Assembly: GCA_022844105.1 (NCBI GenBank)
Contig: JALHMJ010000005.1
Span: 121,851 to 185,850 of the forward strand
Reading direction: 5' to 3'
Source of the DNA: Hyphomicrobium sp.
GTDB lineage: Bacteria; Pseudomonadota; Alphaproteobacteria; Rhizobiales; Hyphomicrobiaceae
DNA length: 64,000 nt
Shown here: positions 6,652 through 14,186 of the stretch, in pieces
How the letters are laid out: every line of letters starts with the position of its first letter
Numbering within the stretch: the stretch's first letter is position 1
The notes under the pieces: model-generated
What the model was told of the DNA's origin: nothing
Database searches by the model: none
What the model saw: only the letters and a program-made list of their open reading frames with translations
Program-made: the position numbers and the translations under genes

Positions 6652-6861
6652 ATGACCCCGGGTACTGTTAAGTTCTACAACTATCAAAAAGGCTTCGGCT
6701 TCATCACGCCGGATGCCGGTGGCAAGGACGTCTTCGTGCACGCGACCGCTCTCGAGCGCGCTGGCCTGCAGGGCCTCGCCGAAGGACAGAAGGTTCGCTT
6801 CGATACCGAAGAGGATCGTCGTTCGGGCAAGATCGCGGTCGGCCGGATTGAGGCTGCATAA
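6652..6861 (+). CDS. cold-shock domain protein (CspA family)
   Basis: [39 protein letters not shown]. Confidence 0.95.
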
Positions 6862-6891
6862 CAAGCCGCCTCTCCTGCGCACCGCAGTTGG

Positions 6892-6920
6892 AAAGCCGCT
6901 CCGCAAGGGGCGGCTTTTTC
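6892..6920 (+). terminator. rho-independent terminator of csp gene
   Basis: AAAGCCGC-tccgcaagg-GGCGGCTTTTT. Confidence 0.8.
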
Positions 6921-7039: not shown

Positions 7040-9310
7040 ATGGGCGGCATGCGGGCGCAGGCACTGGCGAGTTTCGTTGCGATGGTGTTGGCAGCCAGCG
7101 CTTCGATGATCAGCGGCAGCGCGAAGGCCGCGGCTATCGAAGCCGCCGAAGCAGCCACGAAGCCGCCGCTCAATGTCTCGATTTTCGTCTCCACGCGCAA
7201 CGACGTTTGCTACGACCGTGGTGACGTCGCCGCCATCCGGCATTTCGCGCAAGTCGAGGCCGATCGCATCAATGCCCAGGGCGGCATTGCCGGCCACAAG
7301 CTGAACGTGCGCATCCTCGACGACAATCGCGATCCCAAAAAGTCGATTGTGAACGTCCGCGACGCGCTGACCGATCCCGACACCATCGGCATGATCGGCT
7401 TGTCAAGCTCGGACCGTTCCAAAGCGGTGTTCGACGCCGTGGGCAAGGAGATCAAGCAGAAGAATATTCCGTTCCTTTCTGCGATGTCCGTCAACAGCAT
7501 CTTCGCCGACTATCCCAACGTCTTTTCAATGCGCGCCTCGCAAGACAACGAGCGGCTGCCGGTGTTGGCGCAGTTCGTCCGCCGTACGGGGTTTCAGCGC
7601 CCGGCCTTCATCGGCTTGCGCGATACGCTCTTTTCGACCACTCTTGCCGACGGGCTGAACCGCATTATGAGCGCCTATCTCGTCGCCGATCATCGTCTCG
7701 CCTCGAAAGATGAAAAAGCCGATCCGGCCGATTTTCCCGCCGTCATCGAAGATCTAAAAATCAAGAATCCCGACCTCGTGTTCCTCGCCATCGGCAATGA
7801 TCGCAACGGCGAGTTCATCGCTCAATTGAAGGCAGCCGGCCTGTCGCCTGCCATCCTTCTGACAGGCCGCATTAATTCCGTCTCGACGGACATTTCACGC
7901 GATTATACAGGCACACTTTATGAATTGGTCTGGGACCGGCTGCCCGGCCTCTACAACGCCCGTCTGATGCGCCGCATGGCTGGACAGCCGCCGGAAGATT
8001 GGGTCTTTCTCGGCGGCAAAATCGGCATCGCGCCAGGCTGGGCCAACGGCGAGTGCAAGGAACGCGCGGCGAGCCTTGCCAGCGATCCGCTGTCCGACGA
8101 AAACCTCCGTGCCATCGGCATCGGCACGCAGTACGCCGATATGCTGGGTCTTATCGCCGCCGCGGCCCGCACGGCCCCACGCGAAATCGAGGTCAAGGAC
8201 CTGCGCTCGCATATTCTCGAACAGTTGACGAAAACCTACGCCGCAGGCCGCAATGTGTATCAGGGTCAGTTCGAGAATTGGTCCTTTGACCCCCGTGCGC
8301 GCACCGCCACTCGTACCCCGTTCCTCGTCCAGCTAGCGCCCGGCATGGGACGCACGCAATTGGCACCGCTGCAGTTTGCACGCCTCAAGAACGAGAATTT
8401 GCGCTCGATTGGCACGCAATATATGGATATCGACCTGATCCGCGTTTTCTCCGTCGACGACAACGCCAAGACCTTCCAGGCCGAGTTCTACGTCTCCATG
8501 CGCGACGACGGGCAGGAGAACTCCATCGATCTGATCGAATTCGCCAACGCCGCCATCAACCCGCAGACCAACGATCGGCAAATAACCGTCCGCACGCTGG
8601 CCACGGGCGAAAAGAGCGACGCCTATCCCGATGGCATGAAGATTTATTACGTGTCGGGAAGGTTTCTGTTCCAGCCACAACTTTCGACGTATCCGTTCGA
8701 TACGCAGCGCTTCGCCATTAATATCCGGCCCAAGCGCGGCGACAAACCTTTCATCGTGCAACCTCCCCCGATGGACCTTCGCGATACAGCTGTCGATGCC
8801 GACGGATGGGAGCCGCAGAGCCAATACGTTGGCTACGACGAGGACTTCGTCACGACGATCGATGCCAAAACCCACCAGTCAAGTATCGTGCCTTTTTACA
8901 AGGGCGCCTTTGTGTGGGTCATGTCGCGCGAGACCAACGACTATTTCCTGCGCGTGGTCGTGCCGCTGCTCTTCATCATGGCGGTCGCCTACGTTTCGAT
9001 CTTCATTCCGCTCTCGCACTTCGAAGCGATCGTGACGATTCAGGTGACCGCGTTGCTCTCTGCTGTCGCGCTCTATCTATCGCTGCCCGCCATCGACAGC
9101 GATGCAACGACACTGTCGGACCGAATTTTCCTGTTCGCCTACCTGTCGGTAACGGTGATGATCGCGATCTCTGTGTTGCGTATTAACCCGCTATTTGAGG
9201 CGCGACCAAAGGCGCTCATGGCGTTGACAGCAACGCACGTGGTGTTGATCCCGCTCCTCGCACTTGCAATGGCAGTCTTCGTCCAGCGCGCAAGCTTGGG
9301 GCTGGGATAA
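7040..9310 (+). CDS. fusion protein: N-terminal type-1 periplasmic-binding (LivK-like) domain + C-terminal pentameric ligand-gated ion channel (Cys-loop/pro-loop family)
   Basis: Signal peptide, then VEADRINAQGGIAGHKLNVRILDDNRDPKKS... (Peripla_BP_6-like); then pLGIC features: LSTYPFDTQRFAI pro-loop, NDYFLRVVVPLLFIMAVAYVSIF (M1), SHFEAIVTIQVTALLSAVALYLSLP (M2), TLSDRIFLFAYLSVTVMIAISVL (M3), ALMALTATHVVLIPLLALAMAVFV (M4). Start at 7040 or 7049; the ORF-track start at 6713 overlaps csp. Confidence 0.85.
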   Translation: MGGMRAQALASFVAMVLAASASMISGSAKAAAIEAAEAATKPPLNVSIFVSTRNDVCYDRGDVAAIRHFAQVEADRINAQGGIAGHKLNVRILDDNRDPKKSIVNVRDALTDPDTIGMIGLSSSDRSKAVFDAVGKEIKQKNIPFLSAMSVNSIFADYPNVFSMRASQDNERLPVLAQFVRRTGFQRPAFIGLRDTLFSTTLADGLNRIMSAYLVADHRLASKDEKADPADFPAVIEDLKIKNPDLVFLAIGNDRNGEFIAQLKAAGLSPAILLTGRINSVSTDISRDYTGTLYELVWDRLPGLYNARLMRRMAGQPPEDWVFLGGKIGIAPGWANGECKERAASLASDPLSDENLRAIGIGTQYADMLGLIAAAARTAPREIEVKDLRSHILEQLTKTYAAGRNVYQGQFENWSFDPRARTATRTPFLVQLAPGMGRTQLAPLQFARLKNENLRSIGTQYMDIDLIRVFSVDDNAKTFQAEFYVSMRDDGQENSIDLIEFANAAINPQTNDRQITVRTLATGEKSDAYPDGMKIYYVSGRFLFQPQLSTYPFDTQRFAINIRPKRGDKPFIVQPPPMDLRDTAVDADGWEPQSQYVGYDEDFVTTIDAKTHQSSIVPFYKGAFVWVMSRETNDYFLRVVVPLLFIMAVAYVSIFIPLSHFEAIVTIQVTALLSAVALYLSLPAIDSDATTLSDRIFLFAYLSVTVMIAISVLRINPLFEARPKALMALTATHVVLIPLLALAMAVFVQRASLGLG

Positions 9311-9318
9311 TCCTGCCC

Positions 9319-11121
9319 CTAGTTCTCATCCATCTTGAGCGCGGCAATGAAGGCTTCCTGCGGGATTTCGACTTTGCCGAATTCGCGCATCTTCTTCTTG
9401 CCGGCCTTCTGTTTGTCGAGCAGCTTGCGCTTGCGTGAGATATCGCCGCCGTAACATTTGGCGAGCACGTCCTTGCGCAGCGCCTTGATCGTCTCGCGCG
9501 CAATCACCTTGGCTCCAATCGCCGCCTGGAGCGGAATTTGGAACAGGTGAGGCGGGATCAATTCCTTGAGCTTCTCGCACATGGATCGCCCGCGGCTTTC
9601 CGCCCGCGCCCGGTGCACCACGATCGACAGGGCATCCACCGGCTCGCTATTGACGAGGATCGAAAGCTTGACGAGATCGCCTTCTTCGTAGCCCTGGATA
9701 TGGTAGTCGAAGGATGCGTAGCCGCGCGAAACGCTCTTCAGCCGGTCATAGAAATCGAACACCACTTCGTTCAGCGGCAATTCGTAAACGAGCATGGCGC
9801 GCGCGCCGACGTAGGTTAGCGTCTTCTGTCGCCCGCGCCGGTCCTGGCAGAGTTTCAGAACGGCGCCGAGATAGTCGTCGGGCACGAGGATCGTTGCCTC
9901 GATCCACGGCTCTTCGATGTGGTCGATTTTGACAACGTCCGGCATGTCGGCCGGATTGTGCATTTCGACGACGCTGCCACCCTTCATGTGCAAGTGGTAG
10001 ATGACCGACGGCGCCGTGGTGATGAGTTCAAGGTTGAACTCGCGCACGAGGCGCTCGGTGATGATTTCCAAGTGCAGAAGGCCAAGAAACCCGCAACGGA
10101 ATCCGAATCCGAGCGCGGCGGAGCTTTCCGTCTCAAACGAGAAGCTCGCATCGTTGAGACGCAGCCGCGACATGGCCTCGCGCAGATCTTCAAAGTCGGC
10201 GGCGTCGACCGGGAAAAGTCCGCAGAACACCACAGGTTGCGCGGGCTTGAAGCCCGGCAGCGCCTCGGCCGTCGGATGCTTCTCGTCGGTGATGGTGTCG
10301 CCGACCCGCGTATCGGCAACTTCCTTGATTGCGCCGGTGAAAAATCCGATCTCGCCTGGGCCGAGTTCGCCGAGCATCTCCTGCTTTGGCCGGAAGATGC
10401 CGACGCGCTCGACGGGATACGCCCCGTCCGTCGACATCATCTTGACCCGCTGGCCCTTCTTCAGCGTGCCTTCGATCACCCGCACCAGAACCACCACGCC
10501 GAGGTAGGCGTCATACCAGCTGTCGATCAGCATGGCTTTTAGAGGTTTGTTGCGGTCACCCTTTGGTGGCGGCAGCCGTTCGACAATCGCCTCGAGCACG
10601 GCAGCGACATTGAGACCCGTCTTTGCCGAAACACCAATGGCATCCGAAGCATCAATGCCGATGACATCCTCGATCTGCTGCCTGACCCGGTCGGCATCGG
10701 CCGAAGGCAGGTCGATCTTGTTCAGGACCGGTAGGATTTCGAGGTTGTTGTCGAGCGCCTGATAGACGTTGGCAAGCGTCTGGGCTTCAACGCCCTGACT
10801 TGCGTCAACGACGAGAACCGCGCCTTCGCACGCCGCCAGAGAACGCGAAACTTCGTAGGCGAAGTCGACGTGGCCGGGCGTGTCCATCAGATTGAGCTGG
10901 TAGGTCTTGCCGTCCTTGTGCTTGTAATCGAGGCGAACCGTCTGCGCCTTGATCGTAATGCCGCGCTCCCGCTCGATGTCCATGCTGTCGAGGATTTGCG
11001 CCTTCATCTCGCGATCTGAGACGTTGCCGCACAGCTGGATCAGCCGGTCGGACAGCGTCGACTTACCGTGGTCGATATGGGCGATGATCGAAAAGTTGCG
11101 GATCAGGGAAGTATCTGTCAT
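9319..11121 (-). CDS. lepA: elongation factor 4 (LepA)
   Basis: [32 protein letters not shown]...DTPGHVDF...; full-length LepA. Confidence 0.97.
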
Positions 11122-11287
11122 GGGCGGCTGATAGCACTTGGGTTTCTCCGGCAAAAGGGCCTTGTCCGGTCACCGTCGAACCGTCGCACGTCGCGGCTGG
11201 CAGACGTCGGAGTACTGGCAAAGCTGGCAACGTGCGACGGCGTGTGCAACAATGCTGGAAACCAATAGATTAACTGGAGGAAATGAC

Positions 11288-11953: not shown

Positions 11954-12033
11954 TAGTATCGCCGAGTACAGCGCACAGGATTTCCGCCACGTGTTGCGCA
12001 TTGCTGCGAAAGGTCAACCCAACTAACGTCTCG

Positions 12034-12600
12034 ATCAAGCCCGGCGGCCGGCTCCCCGCCAGGGGAGTCGCCATCCGGCCGGCTCCGCGTAGGTGGCGTC
12101 GGATGGCGCCACAAAAGCTCGCCGGGTCGCACGCACTAATCAAGCCCGGCGGCCGGCTCCCCGCCAGGGGAGTCGCCATCCGGCCGGCTCCGCTTAGGCG
12201 GAGTCGGATGGCGCCACAAAAACTCGCCGGGCGCACGCACTAATCAGGCCCGGCGGCCGGCTCCCCGTCAGGGGAGTCGCCATCCGGCCGGCTCCGCGTG
12301 GGCGGAGTCGGATGGCGCCACAAAAACTCGCCGGGCGCACGCACTAATCAGGCCCGGCGGCCGGCTCCCCGTCAGGGGAGTCGCCATCCGGCCGGCTCCG
12401 CGTAGGCGGAGTCGGATGGCGCCACAAAAACTCGCCGGGCGCACGCACTAATCAGGCCCGGCGGCCGGCTCCCCGTCAGGGGAGTCGCCATCCGGCCGGC
12501 TCCGCGTAGGCGGAGTCGGATGGCGCCACAAAAACTCGCCGGGCCCACGTATTAAGCCCGGCGGCCGGCTCCCCGCCAGGGGAGTCGCCGGGCCCACTAA
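12034..12600. repeat. tandem direct repeat, 104/105-bp unit, five near-complete copies plus one partial
   Basis: Unit starts at 12034, 12139, 12243, 12347, 12451 and partial from 12551; each unit atcagg/aagcccggcggccggctccccgYcaggggagtcgccatccggccggctccgcgtaggcggagtcggatggcgccacaaaaactcgccgggcgcacgcacta. Confidence 0.97.
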
Positions 12601-12614
12601 TAAAGAGGAACGAC

Positions 12615-14186
12615 ATGACGAGCATGGAATCGAGCGGTACGCCGGCGTCAGCCACACCGGCGTCGTCCACGGTCGGCGCGGACGTCCTCGCCTCTGTTGT
12701 CGTTTTCCTCGTCGCGCTGCCTCTGTGCATGGGCATTTCACTCGCCTCAGGTCTGCCGCCGACGGCCGGCATCGTGACCGGCATCATCGGTGGCATCATC
12801 GTCGGCGCGATTGCCGGTTCACCGCTGCAGATCAGCGGCCCAGCCGCAGGCCTGGCTGTTCTCGTTTATGAGCTCGTTCAGGCGCACGGCGTGGAGATGC
12901 TGGGCACCATCGTGCTTTTCGCTGGTCTCCTGCAATTTGCCGCCGGCTCGTTCAAACTGGGGCAGTGGTTTCGCGCCGTCTCCCCCGCCGTCATCCACGG
13001 CATGTTGGCTGGAATTGGCATCCTGATCTTTGCCGCTCAGTTCCACGTGATGCTTGACGGCAAACCAGTCGGTAACGGCATTCAAAATTTGCTGGCGATC
13101 CCAGGCGCGATCGTGACTGCGGTCCAGGCTGGCGATAGCCGCATGACCGCCGGCGAAGTCGGTGCCCTCACGATTGCCGCGATTTTTGCCTGGGCCTCGC
13201 TAGCGCCCAAGCGACTGCGTGTCATACCCGCCCCGCTCGTGGGCGTCGTCGTCGGCATGATGGCCGCAGCGATTTTCCAGATCGATTCGATCAAGTTCGT
13301 CAGCGTCCCGGAAAACTTCTGGTCGACGCTCATCTTCCCGACGCCGGAGCGGATCGGCACGTTTTTCACCAATCCCCATCTGCTGATTGGTGCCGTGGCC
13401 ATTGCATTTATCGCTTCCGCCGAAACGCTGCTTTGCGCTACCGCTGTCGATCAGATGCATTCCGGTCCGCGAACGAAATATGATCGCGAACTCACCGCGC
13501 AAGGCATCGGCAACACACTCTGCGGCGCCCTGGGTGCGCTACCGATGACCGGCGTCATCGTCCGCTCGGGTGCCAATGTGGAAGCAGGCGCCAAGACGCG
13601 GCTGTCTGCGATATTGCACGGCGTCTGGCTTCTGCTCTTTGCCAGCCTCCTTCCTTGGACGCTGACCTACATCCCGCTGTCTTCGCTGGCCGCGGTTCTG
13701 GTTTATACCGGCTACAAGCTCGCCTACCCCAAGATCGTGCCAACGCTGCTGCAGTACGGCACGACGAAAGTCTTTATTTACGTCGCAACCATCGTGATGA
13801 TCGTCTCCACGGACCTTCTCAAGGGCGTGCTGACCGGTGTCGTGCTCTCACTCGCTCGCATTCTCTATGCGCTGTCCCGTCTTGAAATACGCACCGAAGC
13901 GGCCCCCTCTTCAAAACGTATTGACATGCACCTGTCAGGCACCGCGACGGTGATCGGCTTGCCTAAGCTTGCCCAGGCGCTGGAAGCACTGCCGCCAGGA
14001 TCGGAGGTCGTCATCCACATCAACGACCTCGACTACATCGACCATTCGTGTCTCGACCTGCTCGCCAACTGGGAAAAGCAGCACAAAACAACCGGCGGCA
14101 CGTTGACCATCGAGTGGCACCAGTTGGCCCAAAAATACCATCGCCGCCATGGAACATCGGCCGCGGAACCCGCTGTGATGCCCTGA
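12615..14186 (+). CDS. SulP family inorganic anion transporter with C-terminal STAS domain
   Basis: FLVALPLCMGISLASGLPPTAGIVTGIIGGIIVGAIAGSPLQISGPAAGL...; STAS segment VVIHINDLDYIDHSCLDLL. Confidence 0.92.
   Translation: MTSMESSGTPASATPASSTVGADVLASVVVFLVALPLCMGISLASGLPPTAGIVTGIIGGIIVGAIAGSPLQISGPAAGLAVLVYELVQAHGVEMLGTIVLFAGLLQFAAGSFKLGQWFRAVSPAVIHGMLAGIGILIFAAQFHVMLDGKPVGNGIQNLLAIPGAIVTAVQAGDSRMTAGEVGALTIAAIFAWASLAPKRLRVIPAPLVGVVVGMMAAAIFQIDSIKFVSVPENFWSTLIFPTPERIGTFFTNPHLLIGAVAIAFIASAETLLCATAVDQMHSGPRTKYDRELTAQGIGNTLCGALGALPMTGVIVRSGANVEAGAKTRLSAILHGVWLLLFASLLPWTLTYIPLSSLAAVLVYTGYKLAYPKIVPTLLQYGTTKVFIYVATIVMIVSTDLLKGVLTGVVLSLARILYALSRLEIRTEAAPSSKRIDMHLSGTATVIGLPKLAQALEALPPGSEVVIHINDLDYIDHSCLDLLANWEKQHKTTGGTLTIEWHQLAQKYHRRHGTSAAEPAVMP

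Follow-up and report, generated by a model that had tools for sequence, protein, structure and literature searches.

Bacterial pentameric ligand-gated ion channels (pLGICs) serve as structural models for nerve receptors, and the locus studied here raises the question of whether a single gene joins such a channel to a periplasmic binding protein (PBP) and, if so, how the two halves would work together. The window, that is, the whole 64,000-nucleotide stretch of Hyphomicrobium sp. DNA that was analysed, contains a stop-free frame on the forward strand at 7040-9310, whose translation gives 756 amino acids. The first-pass annotation had read this frame as a signal peptide followed by a LivK-like domain, an extracellular domain (ECD) with a Pro-loop and four transmembrane helices. 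All motifs that it quoted were present in the translation, and Pfam, profile comparisons and AlphaFold models together supported this order from the LivK-like domain onwards (Table 1).

The frame is mechanically open upstream to 6713. A longer protein starting at 6713 was rejected, as the extension overlaps the cold-shock gene at 6653-6862. Because the ATG at 7049 (residue 4) is the start common to five Hyphomicrobium orthologues in an alignment, it is probably the real start and the precursor would contain 753 amino acids, with 7040 as an alternative start for a 756-residue product. Residue numbers given below count from the translation beginning at 7040. Downstream lies a convergent gene on the reverse strand (9319-11154), named lepA from its sequence. 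No gene in the same direction lies close to the fusion ORF, which appears to be monocistronic. Inspection by eye showed a GC-rich hairpin with T residues after it at approximately 6890-6920, absent from the list of the automated scan; it may mark the end of the cold-shock gene transcript. A scan for consensus promoters returned none. Elsewhere in the window, direct repeats with a spacing of 104 nt and copies up to 98% alike were observed at 12021-12644, just upstream of a SulP-like gene.

Table 1. Coordinates (window positions) of the fusion gene and of the parts of its predicted product.
Feature	Position	Strand	Basis
PBP-pLGIC fusion CDS, 753 aa	7049..9310	+	Translation; ATG shared by five aligned orthologues
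Predicted Sec signal peptide, likely cleavage after A-K-A (residue 30)	7049..7129	+	By eye
Type-1 periplasmic-binding (LivK/ANF-like) domain, residues 44-420	7169..8299	+	Peripla_BP_6, Foldseek, conservation
pLGIC extracellular (ligand-binding) beta-sandwich, residues 440-630	8357..8929	+	AlphaFold secondary structure; Foldseek to GLIC
Pro-loop tip Y551-P-F-D554	8690..8701	+	No variation at Pro, Phe or Asp among 22 sequences
Pre-M1 Arg630	8927..8929	+	Invariant; expected Pro-loop Asp partner
M1 helix	8933..9004	+	AlphaFold
M2 pore helix, invariant QVTALL; E662 (9023-9025) at -2'	9011..9091	+	AlphaFold, family alignment
M3 helix	9113..9184	+	AlphaFold
M4 helix	9206..9301	+	AlphaFold

An assembly join, a frameshift or a pseudogene could also place two such halves side by side, and the first two had been singled out from the start as threats to the fusion. 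In other genomes, both halves shared one frame in more than 35 sequences. The dN/dS values between congeners were 0.03-0.17 across all modules (PBP, 0.10-0.17; linker and ECD, 0.03-0.06; transmembrane domain, 0.07-0.09), and purifying selection acted most strongly on the ECD (0.03-0.04 in comparisons with the window protein). AlphaFold, run on residues 44-756 with a 22-sequence alignment, returned one confident chain with a mean pLDDT of 84.8 and a pTM of 0.78. The one copy that would fit an artefact was L007 (6576-8743 on contig 139 of G005, a MAG), where the fusion falls into two frames that part between PBP and ECD, by a sequencing error or as a broken copy. The artefact explanation is refuted by the family-wide conservation of the fusion, and we give it next to no weight.

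Each of the six genus genomes examined contained the fusion, as did 21 of 36 genomes of the family and 3 of 24 others of the order; in an order-wide sample, 20 of 397 genomes had a match at E<1e-100. The named relatives were Hyphomicrobium MAGs with approximately 80% identity. Two diverged copies of the fusion were observed in some relatives (L155 and L083 in G024; contig 36 in G020). A class-wide search with the full-length profile was uninformative because stand-alone PBPs are abundant and few candidates were scored per genome, and it was rerun with the channel half. The channel-half profile detected no clade member in the class-wide sample outside the genome of the window itself, and a plasmid collection gave no match. 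In the samples searched, the window clade was thus found only in the order to which the window genome belongs. No conserved neighbour or partner gene was detected at the homologous loci examined outside Hyphomicrobium, and the neighbourhood shared within the genus consisted of the convergent lepA and other local synteny only. This is what a one-gene receptor would be expected to give.

Pfam recognized Peripla_BP_6 at residues 70-274 of the window protein (1.6e-21, above the cut-off) and, weakly, ANF_receptor (3.5e-6), whereas the channel models that had been expected to match the second half stayed below significance. The assignment of this half to the pLGICs therefore rests on profile and fold. 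In a single-sequence search, residues 464-744 matched GLIC (E 1.3e-4), and the channel-half profile compared with the PDB matched entries that we take to be DeCLIC (1.8e-7), as well as GLIC (2e-6) and nAChR alpha-7 (3.3e-5). Only PBP-type proteins appeared among the Foldseek matches listed for the whole chain, so the channel half was modelled separately by AlphaFold (pLDDT 84.4). Its best Foldseek match in the PDB was GLIC at 7e-17 (probability 1.0, TM approximately 0.65), and the best 50 matches listed were GLIC structures or a GLIC chimera. Residues ~440-755, for which the first-pass annotation had allowed that no pLGIC structure might match, thus resemble GLIC in fold and GLIC and DeCLIC in profile.

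In detail, this half is homologous to pLGICs of known structure and consists of a beta-sandwich ECD followed by four transmembrane helices. At its tip, the beta6-beta7 loop carries the [F/Y]PxD motif of Pro-loop receptors (YPFD), and Arg630 precedes M1, the position of the Arg that partners the Pro-loop Asp (PMC4795631). As had been described, the Cys pair is missing; no Cys residues flanking the Pro-loop were conserved in the family alignment, which sets the protein apart from animal-type Cys-loop receptors. The numbering of M2 against GLIC also proved correct, with E662 at -2', Thr at 2' and 6' and Leu at 9'. Position -2' was Glu in 35 of the 37 distinct family sequences (Asp in one and Asn in one), and 0' was small or hydrophobic, with no Arg or Lys. 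The pore helix carries, at the level of sequence hallmarks, the cation-type signature claimed for it, and it was the most conserved stretch of the protein. Cation selectivity, as read from these few M2 residues, is the best reading of the pore.

The N-terminal half showed both the Peripla_BP_6 match and the fold of a type-1 periplasmic binding protein. The best Foldseek matches of the whole model were LivK/LivJ-type folds (4e-18), behind which came amide-, urea- and aromatic-acid-binding relatives and mGluR/T1R domains. Polar positions conserved in the family include Ser124, Arg126, Ser150, Glu171, Arg308, Arg357 and Asp367. Cys57 occurred in 20 of 22 family members and Cys339 in 18 of 22, and the two could form a disulfide. 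The PBP half was the least conserved part of the fusion protein, so that it may bind varying ligands or serve a structural role.

An amino-acid-type ligand had been proposed for this domain. LivK and LivJ of E. coli MG1655 were used as references, and the amino-acid contacts in LivJ/LivK are Ser79, Thr102, Tyr202 and Glu226; the alignment is remote (<20% identity), so the mapping of positions is uncertain. The position of Ser79 corresponded to Ser124, and 19 of the 22 family sequences had Ser there. The position of Thr102 was occupied by Val151 (Val or Leu in the family), that of Tyr202 by a mostly Gly column (Gly, His or Asn), and that of Glu226 by the invariant Gly276, the next residue being Arg in 15 of 22. 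Only one of the four recognition positions, Ser79, was therefore kept in this remote alignment, and the proposed type of ligand was not supported. A PBP that binds a standard amino acid, which would make the protein an amino-acid-gated channel, seems improbable to us. The retained Ser and the nearest solved relatives by sequence and fold, which are of the LivK/LivJ type and several of which contain bound amino acids, speak for it, but the equivalents of Thr102, Tyr202 and Glu226 are lost in the remote alignment, and relatives with the same fold also take amides, urea and aromatic acids. The pocket could well belong to a functional binding protein, though not evidently one of the amino-acid type, and the ligand is probably something other than a zwitterionic amino acid held as in LivJ/LivK. 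Of the overall interpretation offered at first, a PBP fused to a genuine pLGIC with a cation-type M2 stands, whereas the amino-acid ligand lacks support.

Taken together, the gene product is read as a self-contained subunit of an inner-membrane ligand-gated ion channel with predicted clamshell-to-pore gating, to which we assign a probability of roughly 0.72. The best reading is a cation-selective channel that a periplasmic ligand gates or modulates. The subunits would assemble into a homopentamer carrying five PBP domains in the periplasm, and a small solute would close the PBP clamshell. The movement would then pass, in an order that we assume, by way of the ECD and the contact between Pro-loop and pre-M1 to M2, which would open or close a cation-conducting pore marked by Glu at -2', Thr at 2' and 6' and Leu at 9'. 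The physiological output might concern membrane potential, ion homeostasis or chemotaxis. We infer this relay from clamshell closure via the ECD to a cation pore from the anatomy of the protein.

The PBP half might instead be a modulator that tunes kinetics, the opening itself being triggered, as in GLIC or DeCLIC, by protons, ions or a ligand of the ECD. In favour of this, the channel half is closest in fold to GLIC and better conserved than the PBP, and the beta-rich N-terminal domains NTD1 and NTD2 of DeCLIC influence gating kinetics (PMC9897478). This role is conceivable but rather unlikely in our judgement, as the PBP half was found in every family member checked and the conserved polar residues Ser124, Arg126, Ser150, Glu171 and Arg357 look selected. 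Gating by the clamshell remains the preferred reading.

The PBP sensor was also found with other pores. A second PBP-pLGIC lineage (L060-L062, also L153 and L154) occurred in the same order, with L060-L062 in two other families of it. L060-L062 contained a full Peripla_BP_6 (down to 3e-49), a weak Neur_chan_memb match and an M2 reading PPRLSGGILVLVTVSLL, which is anion-channel-like; the best matches of their transmembrane profile were the GABA-A and glycine receptors. SRFTVGVTTLL-type M2 sequences were detected in similar fusions elsewhere in the phylum. With the window clade and the lineages resembling L060-L062, both cation- and anion-type pores, as judged by sequence, are found with PBP sensors.

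A phylum-wide search with the channel profile of L060-L062 also returned proteins of 820-1190 amino acids that matched in the extracellular half only. Among 32 such proteins examined, Peripla_BP_6 was present in 30 and MS_channel_2nd in 16. These 16 MscS chimeras (L125-L131, L134-L137, L139-L142 and L152) came from Pseudomonadota, alphaproteobacteria included. The members scanned individually showed Peripla_BP_6, a middle domain and the MscS beta-domain in this order, followed in L130 and L139 by a C-terminal cNMP-binding domain. The middle domain was matched by an ECD-only HMM, with values of 2e-19 to 4e-34, but not by the transmembrane HMM. In profile-profile comparison, the middle domain matched L060-L062 with 99.9% probability (2.9e-31) and the window clade with 97.4% (1.3e-11). 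The middle domain searched alone as a profile against solved structures gave no match. From the profile-profile comparison and the ECD-only HMM, it looks like a pLGIC-type ECD. Its Pro-loop region reads PFGSH, PYGSH or AYGT, compared with PFDxQ, and thus lacks the Asp that would be expected to pair with the pre-M1 Arg.

The occurrence of the PBP and ECD pair on an anion-type pLGIC and on MscS pores suggests a portable sensor. We lean towards the view that a PBP and Pro-loop ligand-binding domain form a periplasmic cassette driving cation- and anion-type pLGIC pores and MscS pores, two of the latter with a cytoplasmic cyclic-nucleotide-binding domain, and that the chimeras would represent a class of ligand-gated channel not described before. 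No papers on PBP-ECD-MscS chimeras were found in the literature searched, which was not exhaustive. The PBP might also concentrate a ligand, or pass it to an orthosteric site in the ECD, without signalling by its own closure, a role in sensing or concentrating ligands having been put forward for PBP-I fusions by Tasneem et al. (2004; PMC549065). We consider such a hand-over doubtful; the presence of the pair on two unrelated pore types is compatible with either mechanism. Under the preferred clamshell reading, the window clade offers a receptor, conserved and encoded by one gene, whose clamshell-based ligand sensing would be separable from pore gating. The MscS chimeras, which lie outside the window and look newer than the PBP-pLGIC fusion, would provide a way to ask how one sensor drives two unrelated pores.

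In a tree of the channel half, the window clade was monophyletic (100/100) with a long stem and stood apart from the stand-alone channels and the other PBP-fused lineages sampled; several of its deeper joins unite long branches and should not be relied upon. The window genome contains a second, stand-alone pLGIC of approximately 371 amino acids (L002, contig 10, ~11.1-12.2 kb), the nearest relatives of which are other stand-alone channels of the order.

PBP fusions, for which the first-pass annotation tentatively pointed to surveys, are indeed on record: ART-LGICs with a fused PBP-I were described for Bradyrhizobium japonicum and Magnetospirillum magnetotacticum by Tasneem et al. (2004; PMC549065). 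Jaiteh et al. (2016) left domain architectures out of consideration and remarked that the evidence for such associations is at the genome level only (PMC4795631), and no experimentally characterised PBP-fused pLGIC turned up in the literature searched. Given the precedent of 2004 (PMC549065), the window protein represents a new and clearly delimited clade with a previously reported architecture. It shares with the ART-LGICs of Tasneem et al. the order of signal peptide, PBP-I, pLGIC ligand-binding domain and four transmembrane helices, and the occurrence in alphaproteobacteria; the two were compared by description only, and the window clade is set apart from the lineages sampled in the tree. 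GLIC, the proton-gated channel of Gloeobacter, resembles the window protein in the fold of the channel half and the M2 Glu at -2', but has no N-terminal sensor domain and is only ~18-20% identical. DeCLIC, the best sequence-profile match in the PDB, is likewise a bacterial pLGIC with a periplasmic N-terminal domain and was in 2022 the sole pLGIC with an extra N-terminal domain of known structure, but its added domains are NTD1 and NTD2, with no PBP (PMC9897478). LivK and LivJ belong to the same fold and Peripla_BP_6 family as the N-terminal domain, but are free, soluble partners of ABC transporters, and their recognition residues are mostly lost in the window protein. The NMDA/AMPA and metabotropic glutamate receptors have transmembrane parts unrelated to those of the window protein, which is no member of these families, but they are alike in concept, with a PBP-type clamshell placed upstream of a membrane signalling unit.
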